64,000 nt of DNA. Origin: an uncultured Thermomicrobiaceae bacterium (lineage in GTDB: Bacteria > Chloroflexota > Chloroflexia > Thermomicrobiales > Thermomicrobiaceae). The position numbers and the translations under genes are program-made. Positions 28,862-64,000 of this stretch are shown here, in pieces. The stretch's first letter is position 1; the number at the start of each line of letters is the position of its first letter. The stretch lies in assembly GCA_938082375.1 (NCBI GenBank), contig CALKCJ010000001.1:62001-126000 (forward strand). The letters are read 5' to 3'. The notes under the pieces are model-generated. The model saw only the letters and a program-made list of their open reading frames with translations. It did not search any database and was not told the origin of the DNA.

Positions 28862-28891
28862 TTGTCAGTATGCCATCCCACACGGTATAGT
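28862..28891 (+). promoter_or_regulatory. Promoter of the glmS ribozyme-glmS transcript
   Basis: TTGTCA (28862-28867) and TATAGT (28886-28891) are 18 bases apart, close to consensus. Transcription should begin near 28898, about 50 bases before the ribozyme cleavage site. Confidence 0.65.
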
Positions 28892-28947
28892 GTCCCTGGC
28901 CTGTGCAGCAACGCGGGAGAAAGGGAGGTCGAGCGAGCGGATTCGAG

Positions 28948-29098
28948 TAGCGCCCGGACTCGCCGGGGGAGGCGGCGAGTCGACGAGGAGGAGGCCGGTC
29001 GAAAGATTCGGCGGATGGCCTCCCGGCTGGCACGGTCGTCACGGCCAGAGCAAGGGCGTCGAGCGATCGGCGAGGCAAAGGCTGGCCGGCGTGCACGC
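28948..29098 (+). ncRNA. glmS self-cleaving ribozyme (glucosamine-6-phosphate responsive)
   Basis: The leader of glmS contains the conserved core of the glmS ribozyme. AGCGCC (28950-28955) holds the cleavage site, expected between A28950 and G28951. P1 pairs GACTCGCC (28958-28965) with GGCGAGTC (28975-28982). The invariant GACGAGG follows directly. P2 pairs GGAGGCC (28991-28997) with GGCCTCC (29018-29024), enclosing the catalytic pseudoknot strand with TTCGGCGGAT. P3 pairs CTGGC (29028-29032) with GCCAG (29045-29049), and a P4-like element extends to about 29098. In this class (RF00234) glucosamine-6-phosphate acts as the catalytic coenzyme; cleavage exposes the mRNA to decay and so lowers GlmS when its product is abundant. 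The 3' limit is approximate. Confidence 0.94.
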
Positions 29099-29101
29099 TT
29101 A

Positions 29102-29122
29102 ACCCTCCGAATCGGAGGGTTG
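29102..29122 (+). other. Strong hairpin after the glmS ribozyme
   Basis: AACCCTCCG and CGGAGGGTT form a perfect 9-base-pair stem with a 3-base loop, right after the ribozyme and about 115 bases before the glmS start. No T-run follows, so it is probably not a terminator. It may cap or insulate the ribozyme fold or stabilise the 3' cleavage product. Confidence 0.55.
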
Positions 29123-29238
29123 AGCAGAGTCCCGATTCCCTGCACAGCACAGGCTTCGATATAGGCGTGAGTCACCAGTTGAGGCGGACAGCGTGGCTCC
29201 GGGGGGGTCAGGCTGCCGCTCAAGGGGGACGCTGTGCG

Positions 29239-31020
29239 ATGTGCGGCATCTTCGGATACGTCACAATGCGTGAAGAGTGCGCCCGAACTGTCGTGGACTC
29301 GCTGCGCAAACTCGAGTACCGAGGATATGACTCCTGGGGAGTCGGCGTCGGGCTGAACGGCCACATCCGCGTCGTCAAGCGCGCCGGCCGGATTCCGCCG
29401 ATCTCGCCCGATCTTCCCGCGACCGCGATCGCGTTCGGCCATACGCGATGGGCGACACACGGTGGCGTGACCGATGCCAACGCGCATCCTCACCTCGACT
29501 GCACCGGGCGGCTGGCGGTGATCCACAACGGCATTATCGAGAACTTTCGCACGCTTCGGGCGCAGCTGGAGGGAAACGGTCATCGGTTCGCGAGCGATAC
29601 CGATAGCGAGGTCTTCGCCCACCTCGTCGAACAGGTGCTGCACGCGGGCGACGAGGCGGATCCGGATGCTGTGGTGGAAGCGGTGCGGTCAGCCTTCGCG
29701 TGTGTCGAAGGTCTCAACGCCTTCATCCTGCTCCACCACTGCACGCAGCAGTTGATCGCAGTCAAGTCGATCTCACCGCTGGTCATCGGCGCAGGCGCGG
29801 GCGGTACCTACGTCGCTTCCGATGCCGTCGCCCTGGTCGGCCTGGCCGATCGAGTGCATTACCTCGGAGACGATGAACTCGCTGCTATTCGGGCTGACGG
29901 TCTACACCTGTACGACCGCGCCGACGGGTCGGAGCGGCTGCCCCGCTGGGAACGGCTGACGCTCCAACCCACCGATACGTCGCTGGGAGGCTTTCCACAC
30001 TACCTCATCAAGGAGATCCACGAGCAGCCACGCGTTTTGGAGCGGATCCTCCGTGAGCACCCTCCACAGGCCCGCGAGCTGGCGAACTTGATCACGCGCT
30101 CATATGGCACCTTCCTCGTCGGCTGCGGAACCGCGGGCTACGCGGCCCTCGCTGGCTCTTATCTCTTTTCCCGGATCACTCGCCGACACGTCAATTCAGT
30201 CGTCGCGTCAGAGTTCAAGTACCAGGAGCATTTCCTGACCGATCGGAGCCTCGTGATCGCCCTCTCACAAAGTGGCGAGACCGTCGATGTCATCGAGGCA
30301 GCGCTGGCTGCAAAGCGACGCGGGGCACGGGTCGCCGCGCTGGTGAACGTGACCGGTTCCACGCTCGACCGGCTGGCAGACTTCACGATCCCGTTGCTGG
30401 CAGGCCCTGAGCTGAGCGTGCTCTCGACAAAGGCCTACACCGCAAAGCTTGCGCTGTTGCTTCTCACCGCCCACGTCATCAACGGCAGCGAACATGTCGG
30501 CCTTGACCTGCTCTGGCGTGCGATCGACGGCATCGTGCGGGCGCTCACCCCGGACTTCCAGGATCGCGTCAAAGCCATCGCCGACCACATCGCTGACCAC
30601 CAGCACTGCTTCGTTATTGGGCGGGGCCTCTCGTATCCGACGGCGCTGGAGGCAGCACTGAAGATCAAGGAGGTCAGCTACCTACACGCCGAGGGCTTTG
30701 CAGGTGGCGAGCTGAAGCACGGGGTCATCGCGCTCGTGGAACCCGGGGTACCGTGCATCGTCTTCTCCCCACTCGACGAGACCCGCGCTGACATCCTCTC
30801 CGGCGCCATGGAGCTGCGTAGTCGCGGCGGCTGGATCATCGGTGTTTCTCCCGAATACGAGGCGGTTTTCGATGTGCATCTGCCGGTGTCGGAGGTCGGC
30901 GACGCCGCTCCGTTGGTCAATGTCGTCCCTGCCCAGCTTTTAGGCTACTACCTCGCGGTGCGCAAGGGGTTCGATCCGGACAAGCCGCGGAACCTGGCCA
31001 AGAGCGTAACGGTGAAGTAA
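29239..31020 (+). CDS. glmS: Glucosamine-fructose-6-phosphate aminotransferase (isomerizing)
   Basis: GlmS (EC 2.6.1.16) makes glucosamine-6-phosphate from fructose-6-phosphate and glutamine, the entry to UDP-GlcNAc and cell-wall sugars. With the ATG at 29239 the product is 593 residues and begins MCGIFGYV, leaving Cys2 as nucleophile after methionine removal. HTRWATHGGVTDANAHPH marks the glutaminase domain. Two SIS isomerase domains follow (GCGTAGYAAL, SQSGETVDVI, then GRGLSYPTALEAALKIKE), and the end KPRNLAKSVTVK is the family C terminus. AAGGGGGA lies upstream. Its mRNA leader carries the ribozyme described above. Confidence 0.97.
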   Translation: MCGIFGYVTMREECARTVVDSLRKLEYRGYDSWGVGVGLNGHIRVVKRAGRIPPISPDLPATAIAFGHTRWATHGGVTDANAHPHLDCTGRLAVIHNGIIENFRTLRAQLEGNGHRFASDTDSEVFAHLVEQVLHAGDEADPDAVVEAVRSAFACVEGLNAFILLHHCTQQLIAVKSISPLVIGAGAGGTYVASDAVALVGLADRVHYLGDDELAAIRADGLHLYDRADGSERLPRWERLTLQPTDTSLGGFPHYLIKEIHEQPRVLERILREHPPQARELANLITRSYGTFLVGCGTAGYAALAGSYLFSRITRRHVNSVVASEFKYQEHFLTDRSLVIALSQSGETVDVIEAALAAKRRGARVAALVNVTGSTLDRLADFTIPLLAGPELSVLSTKAYTAKLALLLLTAHVINGSEHVGLDLLWRAIDGIVRALTPDFQDRVKAIADHIADHQHCFVIGRGLSYPTALEAALKIKEVSYLHAEGFAGGELKHGVIALVEPGVPCIVFSPLDETRADILSGAMELRSRGGWIIGVSPEYEAVFDVHLPVSEVGDAAPLVNVVPAQLLGYYLAVRKGFDPDKPRNLAKSVTVK

Positions 31021-57947: not shown

Positions 57948-58112
57948 GCTCCTACTCATCTCCCGACGGCGCCAGCGCGGCTCCTCGGCTCTACCCCGCG
58001 CCGTACGCGTCCTCCAGACGACCGCCGCCGGCGGACTTGGCACCGTGCAGCACCGCTGCCGGTTGCCGGGCTTCCTCGGGCCGTTCCCTCCACCACTCTG
58101 GATAAGAGGAGC
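57948..58112 (-). promoter_or_regulatory. SAM-I (S-box) riboswitch controlling mtnA-ahcY-metK
   Basis: On the minus strand the conserved S-box core is present: CTTATCCAGAGTGGTGGAGG, then GAACGGCCCGAGGAAGCCCG followed by GCAACC, and GGTGCCAAGTCC. P1 pairs GCTCCT-CTTATC with GATGAG-(T)-AGGAGC at the far end (58112 and 57948 are the limits). An extended P4 arm lies between. SAM binding should stabilise P1, free the terminator's 5' arm and stop transcription before mtnA. The whole synthesis/recycling operon would then shut down when SAM is high. This is one of the clearest RNA features in the window. Confidence 0.96.
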
Positions 58113-60932: not shown

Positions 60933-62252
60933 ATGACCAGCCCCCGTGGCCCATCGTCACCGCATGCCCGAGCCGACCGCCTCTGGGAAAACGTGGAAAC
61001 GCTCCTCTCCGTGGACGAGGCGCGGGAGCGCATCCTCGCTGCGGTCTCGCCGCTGCCTGCAGCGCGCGTCCCGCTCCTCGAGGCTCTGGGCCTCGTGCTC
61101 GCCCAACCGGTCGTCGCCGGCCACGACGTGCCCCCCTTTACGAACTCGGCTATGGACGGCTACGCCGTGCGGGCCGAGGATACAGCCGCTGCGAGCTATG
61201 AGCGACCAGTGAGCCTCAGCGTGGTTACCGAGGTGGCGGCCGGTTCCCGCCCGGCGGTCGCCGTCGGGCCAGGGCAGGCTGCCCGTATCATGACCGGCGC
61301 GGTTTTGCCCGAGGGCGCGGACGCCGTGGTTCGCTTCGAGGAGACCGACGAGTGGGATGCCGGGCCGCGCCCGGTGAGCGCCAGGCAACCGGCCGCAATC
61401 CGCATCTTCCGTCGTGTCAAAACGGGCGAGAACGTGCGGCTCGCGGGCGAGGATATCAGGGCTGGGCAGGAAGTACTGCCTCCCGGTACCGTCCTGCGAC
61501 CCGCCTGTATCGGTTTGCTGGCCTCGCTGAACCTGAGATGGGTCACCGTGCATCGGCGGCCGCGGGTCGCCATCCTCGCCACCGGCAACGAAGTTGTCGA
61601 CCTCGGCCCTGAGCTGCTCCCCGGCCAGATCCGCAACAGCAACAACTACACCTTGGCAGCGCTGGTCAGGCAGAGCGGCGGCGAGCCGGTCTTGCTCGGT
61701 GTGGTCCGCGATGAGCCAGACGAGATCCGGCTTCGCCTTCAGAGGGTACATGGTGTCGACTTGATACTGACGTCGGGCGGGGTCTCGATCGGCGACTACG
61801 ACCTGGTCAAGCACGTGCTGCAAGCCGAAGGCCGCATCGACCTCTGGCAGGTCCGCATTAAGCCCGGGAAACCGATGGCCTTCGGCTGGATCGGCGAGGT
61901 GCCGCTGCTTGGCCTCCCGGGAAACCCGGTCGCCGCCTTCGTCGCATTCCTCCAGTTCGGCCGGCCGGCGATCCTCAAGATGCTCGGTTACCGCGATTGG
62001 GCACCGCCGATCGTGCGCGCCCGTTTGCTCGCCCCGTGCGAGAATCGCGGGCAGCGGCGCCACTTCGTCCGCGTGCTGCTCGAGCGTGCGGGTGAGGAGT
62101 ACGTCGCTCGCCCAGTCGGCGAGCAGGGGTCAGGCATTCTCAGCTCGGTCGCCCTGGCGAACGGCCTGGCAGTCATCCCGGAGCAGTGGAACGAGGCGCC
62201 CGCTGGCGCGCTCGTCGACGTCCAGCTCCTCGATGCCTCCTGGCTACCGTAA
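60933..62252 (+). CDS. moeA: Molybdopterin molybdenumtransferase
   Basis: MoeA (EC 2.10.1.1) inserts molybdate into adenylated molybdopterin to make molybdenum cofactor. The 439-residue product is slightly long at the N terminus (~20 residues before LLSVDEARERI). NSAMDGYAVRAEDT, PGQAARIMTGAVLPEGADAV and ILTSGGVSIGDYDLVKHVL are family signatures, and LLGLPGNPVAAFVAF is another. The C-terminal beta-barrel domain is complete. GGAG lies six bases before the ATG. Other Mo-cofactor genes are not in the window. Confidence 0.96.
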   Translation: MTSPRGPSSPHARADRLWENVETLLSVDEARERILAAVSPLPAARVPLLEALGLVLAQPVVAGHDVPPFTNSAMDGYAVRAEDTAAASYERPVSLSVVTEVAAGSRPAVAVGPGQAARIMTGAVLPEGADAVVRFEETDEWDAGPRPVSARQPAAIRIFRRVKTGENVRLAGEDIRAGQEVLPPGTVLRPACIGLLASLNLRWVTVHRRPRVAILATGNEVVDLGPELLPGQIRNSNNYTLAALVRQSGGEPVLLGVVRDEPDEIRLRLQRVHGVDLILTSGGVSIGDYDLVKHVLQAEGRIDLWQVRIKPGKPMAFGWIGEVPLLGLPGNPVAAFVAFLQFGRPAILKMLGYRDWAPPIVRARLLAPCENRGQRRHFVRVLLERAGEEYVARPVGEQGSGILSSVALANGLAVIPEQWNEAPAGALVDVQLLDASWLP

Positions 62253-63354: not shown

Positions 63355-64000
63355 GTGGTAGAGGTCAGCGTCAGCCGCTTCTGGCGCCGTCCGCCAGCAC
63401 TCGACCTGCTTGTGCTCGGGATCGAGATCGGTGGCCATGGCCAGCGCGTTGTGGTTGCCGATGGAAGCGGGCACATACGGGGACAGGCACACGCCCCCGA
63501 CGGAAGAGTGGACGCGCTGACGGCCGTGCTCACGGTACAGCATCTCGCTGAGCGGGCCTGCGAGCAGGCCGGCGTCCCGCTCTCGGCGATCGAAGCTGCC
63601 GGCATCGCCTTCGGCGGGCCGGTCGATCCCCAGCGAGGCCTGACCCTGCTGTCACACCGGGCGCCAGGCTTCGAGCAGTTTCCACTGGCCGCCCTCCTCG
63701 AAGAGCGGCTGGGTCTGTCGGCCACTCTCGACAACGATGCGCGTGCGGCGGCGCTCGGCGAGGCGGCCTTCGGAGCCGGTCGCGGTTGTCAGAACCTCGT
63801 CTATGTCCACCTCGCCACCGGCGTCGGCGGAGGGATCGTCGTCGACGGCCGCCTCCTGTACGGGGCCAGTAATACTGCGGGAGAGATCGGGCACATGGTT
63901 GTCTCGACCGGCGGCCCACTCTGCTCCTGTGGCAAGCCGGGCCACTTGGAAGCCTACGCCGCAGCCCCATCGATCCAGGCTCGGGTGCGTGAACGCCTCG
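63355..64000 (+). CDS. ROK-family sugar kinase or repressor, cut by the window end
   Basis: The open frame starts with GTG at 63355 (GAGG six bases upstream) and runs off the edge after 215 codons. It shows the ROK pattern: IEIGGHGQRVVVAD (degenerate first phosphate motif), GIAFGGPVDPQRG, LDNDARAAALGEAAFGAG (catalytic Asp) and VYVHLATGVGGGIVVDG. GEIGHMVV and the zinc motif CSCGKPGHLEAY follow. No N-terminal helix-turn-helix is present, so a glucokinase-like or N-acyl-hexosamine kinase is likelier than a repressor. It is divergent from the EamA transporter. Confidence 0.92.
   Translation, partial: MVEVSVSRFWRRPPALDLLVLGIEIGGHGQRVVVADGSGHIRGQAHAPDGRVDALTAVLTVQHLAERACEQAGVPLSAIEAAGIAFGGPVDPQRGLTLLSHRAPGFEQFPLAALLEERLGLSATLDNDARAAALGEAAFGAGRGCQNLVYVHLATGVGGGIVVDGRLLYGASNTAGEIGHMVVSTGGPLCSCGKPGHLEAYAAAPSIQARVRERL

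Follow-up and report, generated by a model that had tools for sequence, protein, structure and literature searches.

A glmS ribozyme of the known RF00234 family precedes glmS in a Thermomicrobiaceae bacterium and is the normal state in Thermomicrobiales

The described glmS ribozymes closest to the element analyzed here are those of Bacillus subtilis (Bsu) and Thermoanaerobacter tengcongensis (Tte), in which the active-site guanine is numbered G42 and G40, respectively (PMC11602151). In B. subtilis, the glmS mRNA is degraded by RNase J1 after self-cleavage (PMC3997798). For the internal loop IL4, the B. subtilis A116G mutant was found to cleave at 20% of the rate with a yield of 57%, and mutants altered at positions 114 and 139, inactive at 37 °C, became active again at 50–60 °C (PMC11602151). 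The locus compared with these systems here lies in a window of 64,000 nucleotides, the whole stretch of DNA that was analyzed, from an uncultured Thermomicrobiaceae bacterium; all coordinates are those of the window, on the plus strand (+) unless stated otherwise.

A preliminary description of this DNA had proposed a glmS ribozyme upstream of glmS and an Infernal search with RF00234 as a check. This search (cmscan) revealed a match at 28938–29098 (+) with a score of 76.4 bits and an E value of 8.6e-16, above the gathering score of 37. The alignment is untruncated, spanning model positions 1–167 of 167, and all of the core helices (P1, P2, P2.1, P2.2, P3, P3.1 and P4) and the GNRA tetraloop were found in the leader, so both the sequence match and the original proposal are established. 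An order-specific covariance model scored the window ribozyme at 150.7 bits, the window being one of its 30 training sequences. The GC content of the match is 72%, and 140 bases separate its 3′ end from glmS, which starts with Met-Cys, placing the ribozyme in the 5′ leader of that gene. This leader is almost certainly a canonical RF00234 glmS ribozyme, in which glucosamine-6-phosphate would trigger self-cleavage and thereby exert feedback on GlmS. Within this known family, the element is an ordinary representative; two minor oddities are local to it, a downstream hairpin and a double change in IL4.

In the cleavage motif AGCGCC, which is identical in 30/30 order-level sequences, residue 28949 is A(−1) and residue 28950 is G1; cleavage, as predicted from the family, is therefore expected between the two and would leave the 5′-hydroxyl end at 28950. 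The cut had previously been put at 28950/28951, with the 5′-hydroxyl at 28951, which is one base late. The P2.2 pseudoknot (28951–29013) pairs C28951–C28954 and G28956 with C29009–G29013; all five pairs are invariant and paired in 30/30 sequences (assignment from PMC7125110). P2.1 (28984–29001), which forms the cofactor pocket by pairing of C28984–A28986 with T28999–G29001, is likewise invariant in 30/30 (assignment from PMC7125110 and PMC11602151). The active-site guanine corresponds to G28988, which is identical in the 30 order-level sequences and G in 83/83 aligned ribozymes.

The remaining helices were assessed in an order-level alignment of 30 sequences, the window among them. P1 (28957–28981) consists of eight pairs, 28957–28964 with 28974–28981, and seven of the eight show two-sided changes. 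P2 (28990–29023) consists of seven pairs, 28990–28996 with 29017–29023, and is 100% paired, with two-sided changes at 5/7; the four pairs of P3 (29024–29038), 29024–29027 with 29035–29038, are also 100% paired. Two-sided changes were found at 13/13 pairs of P4 and its distal stem (29042–29088), in which 29042–29048 pairs with 29082–29088 and 29057–29062 pairs with 29067–29072. The distal stem is capped by the GNRA tetraloop GCGA (29063–29066), whose G29063 and A29066 are identical in 83/83 ribozymes. In the P3.1 pseudoknot (29030–29094), the L3 sequence GCAC (29030–29033) pairs with the 3′ GUGC (29091–29094); 90.8% of cells are paired, part of the mispaired cells being MAFFT gap shifts, and two of the four pairs show two-sided changes. 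Every pair of P1, P2, P3, P4 and the distal P4 stem is Watson-Crick or G-U in the window.

Across the 30 sequences, 97.7% of cells pair under the drawn structure, a percentage biased toward the window because that structure was drawn from the known fold of the family and the sequence of the window itself. This bias does not touch the two-sided changes, which were observed at 28/44 pairs as compared with 17.1 in shuffles. The covariation score was 0.431 against 0.175 for shuffled alignments and 0.035–0.107 when partners were slid. P2.1 and P2.2 are invariant, and covariation is therefore uninformative there; support for these helices comes from conservation and the known structure. The intact fold and core are thus established, and the pairing of P1, P2, P3 and the pseudoknot, which had been proposed by eye, was confirmed along with all of the other core helices.

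Inspection of the flanking sequence supported the gene context. The open reading frame at 29239–31020, regarded from the outset as a true glmS, was identified as glutamine-fructose-6-phosphate transaminase (isomerizing) by TIGR01135 (578.7 bits; cut-off 418) and is the sole full-length copy in the genome. It begins with ATG-TGC-GGC (Met-Cys-Gly) at 29239, and a Shine-Dalgarno-like AAGGGGGA (29222–29229) is positioned 9 bases before the ATG, with GGGGGA conserved in the congeners. A Met-Cys-Gly start is required in the GlmS family for the N-terminal nucleophile. An in-frame GTG extension of glmS was also noted at 29167–29238, in which GGCGTGAGTCACCAGT is conserved in congener G003; translation is unlikely to begin at the GTG, since in GlmS a Cys must follow the initiator Met. 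The promoter noted earlier with the ribozyme was found as a putative sigma-70-type element, TTGTCA-18-TATAGT (28862–28891), which has 10/12 consensus bases (0.1 expected in shuffles), ends ∼60 bases upstream of the cleavage site and is kept in both congeners that possess the leader. Two further pairings in the leader were rejected. A stem ACAGCGT/ACGCTGT (29185–29238) that would sequester the Shine-Dalgarno sequence is not preserved, by eye, in congener G003. Pairing of the leader 5′ end GCCTGTGC (28899–28906) with GCACAGGC (29147–29154), which would enclose the ribozyme, has a duplex energy equal to the shuffle mean (p = 0.46) and is also broken by the sole congener change. Elsewhere in the window, a SAM-I riboswitch (RF00162, 57.0 bits) is present at 58004–58108 (−), and the open reading frames that follow it resemble, by eye, mtnA (methylthioribose-1-phosphate isomerase) and adenosylhomocysteinase.

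The mechanism proposed for the locus is modeled on the family, from which cleavage, cofactor dependence and the route of decay are all drawn. Abundant glucosamine-6-phosphate, the product of GlmS, would bind as cofactor in the P2.1/P2.2 pocket, and the cofactor-bound leader RNA would self-cleave at the A28949/G28950 junction. With a 5′-hydroxyl end left by this cut, the glmS mRNA downstream of it would then be degraded, probably by the genome's own RNase J. The resulting loss of mRNA would lower GlmS synthesis, amounting to negative feedback. The presence of an RNase J homologue in the genome is established by a TIGR00649 match of 514.2 bits (cut-off 400).

The ribozyme was detected in 54/61 genomes of the order, in all 54 above the family cut-off, and in 28/28 of the good assemblies (≥90% complete, ≤5% contaminated); the seven order genomes without a match have fragmented, incomplete or contaminated assemblies. 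At the level of the class, matches were obtained in 101/150 genomes (89 above the cut-off), and in the phylum in 125/400 sampled genomes (111 above the cut-off). Matching relatives include Thermomicrobium sp. CFH 73360 (L033) and Sphaerobacter sp. Bu17 (L042), in agreement with a position of the window in or close to Thermomicrobiaceae, and control genomes outside the phylum with a match are those of Bacillus subtilis and Deinobacterium chartae. Order-wide conservation is thus established, and a glmS ribozyme is the normal state in this order rather than a curiosity. The element had been considered notable in a Thermomicrobia-like genome; with its order-wide presence, its frequency in the phylum and its occurrence in the control Deinobacterium, the “non-Firmicute” surprise falls away. 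Self-cleaving feedback on glmS would accordingly be the usual arrangement in an entire non-Firmicute order and frequent in its phylum, and the mainly Firmicute image of the ribozyme would be due, at least in part, to sampling. A literature search yielded no paper joining glmS, ribozyme and Thermomicrobia; the main family survey (McCown 2011) was outside its scope, and absence from the literature is not claimed.

Two observations were made on the wider distribution. Five Chloroflexota genomes of a single family, f48 (G227, G256, G366, G397 and G409), contain two RF00234 matches each, which suggests two ribozyme-controlled genes or loci. In addition, the glmS genes of three Candidatus Gottesmanbacteria (Patescibacteria) are preceded by RF00234 matches of 50–58 bits (L045, 1226–1450; L053, 1179–1447; L068, 220–391), two of which carry large insertions. 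None of the remaining Patescibacteria glmS loci in the scan, among them Gottesmanbacteria L047 and L088, gave an RF00234 match, and a literature search found no paper on Gottesmanbacteria glmS ribozymes.

The first local oddity is a hairpin at 29097–29125, which begins three bases past the final base of the P3.1 strand. It comprises 13 pairs, including one G-U, and a 3-base loop, is not followed by a U-tract, and has a predicted energy of −23.8 kcal/mol (z = −5.2). When the 151-base stretch 29095–29245 was shuffled 2000 times with its dinucleotides preserved, only a fraction of 0.001 reached 13 pairs, which is beyond chance. The preliminary description was right to report a hairpin here, outside the usual ribozyme, but its perfect 9 bp fall short of the observed length. 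A stem is preserved in congener G003 with several substitutions, including, by eye, a compensating A-T to G-C exchange, and is largely lost in congener G001; nothing comparable was found in other genera, z-scores being near zero in most relatives. These observations argue against a general family feature and indicate that the hairpin is a recent genus-level feature. A dispersed repeat was also rejected, because the hairpin occupies one genome site (both-strand reads of the same palindrome) and has no copy in 20 relatives. Strands of the ribozyme are complementary to the 5′ arm of the hairpin. The best guess, weakly supported, is that the hairpin may serve as local insulation, holding its C-rich arm away from the G-rich ribozyme strands. 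Elsewhere in the window, at 62063–62097 and 63427–63462, are two more long hairpins that are perfect over 15 pairs when G-U is allowed.

The second oddity lies in the IL4 strands that flank the distal P4 stem (29052–29079). Position 29054, equivalent to B. subtilis A116 when counted from the GNRA loop, is A in 82/83 aligned ribozymes and G in the window only. At position 29075, opposite to it by the same count, 73 of the 83 have A, 8 have C and 1 has T, and G is again found in the window only. Five of the six adenines of the IL4 adenine stack are kept (29052, 29053 and 29077–29079), the sixth being 29054. That both A-to-G changes occur in one sequence at opposed sites hints at compensation, albeit in one genome, where an assembly error is possible. 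In its fullest form, a G-G would replace the A-A that docks P4 onto P2.1, perhaps at high temperature only, and the hairpin would be a genus-specific protector of P3.1; this combination is considered unlikely. If compensation is true, it would represent a natural solution at a site considered nearly fixed, and the double change provides a small testable case of drift in the ribozyme periphery.

The same two changes could instead belong to a decaying glmS ribozyme that folds but, because of them, cleaves poorly, leaving glmS regulated weakly or otherwise. Consistent with decay, G29054 and G29075 are unique among the 83 ribozymes, and the Rfam score of 76.4 bits is below the 89.0 and 86.0 bits of the two congeners. 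Decay is nevertheless very improbable, given that the core, pocket and pseudoknot residues are all intact and that the changes are opposed, resembling mutual adjustment rather than decay. Thermophiles, moreover, occur in the family. The reduced rate and yield of B. subtilis A116G favor decay, and on this basis the window copy may be slower than average, but the recovery of the 114 and 139 mutants at 50–60 °C points the other way (PMC11602151).

A role of the hairpin as a functional switch partner is very improbable. Here, the 5′ arm CCTCCGAATC would pair with GATTCGGCGG (29005–29014) and block the pseudoknot, and hairpin formation would free the ribozyme. The two segments are complementary at 9/10 bases, and the potential pairing is preserved by eye in congener G003 with one G-U. 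A 9/10 match between GC-rich stretches of this size is, however, expected about once by chance (a rough estimate), the hairpin is highly stable on its own at the energy given above, and its loss in G001 and restriction to the genus do not favor a switch. There is still less to recommend an intrinsic terminator that adds attenuation to the ribozyme: although the leader does contain a strong GC-rich stem, it is followed by AGAGTCCC and no U-tract, which argues that it is not a terminator, the terminator scan returned 0 terminators, and the hairpin is not conserved in the family. That the RF00234 match itself arose by chance or from the composition of a leader with 72% GC has a negligible probability in view of its E value, the right gene and orientation, and a core conserved order-wide, and is ruled out by covariation and phylogenetic distribution.

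The canonical ribozyme in the window thus shares with the RF00234 family P1, P2, P2.1, P2.2, P3, P3.1, P4, the GNRA L4, the AGCGCC motif, the active-site G and a site before glmS, and differs in its GC-rich composition, a short P3 and A-to-G changes at two opposed IL4 positions. Gene context and fold are also shared with the ribozymes of other Thermomicrobiales, of which those of Thermomicrobium sp. CFH 73360 and Sphaerobacter sp. Bu17 possess neither the 29097–29125 hairpin nor the IL4 double change. Relative to the T. tengcongensis and B. subtilis ribozymes, for which the two papers cited below refer to structures and mutational maps, the host belongs to the Chloroflexota and B. subtilis A116 is replaced by G at 29054. 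Core residues are common to the window and the T. tengcongensis and B. subtilis glmS ribozymes (PMC11602151 and PMC7125110), and glucosamine-6-phosphate-dependent cleavage would be expected likewise.
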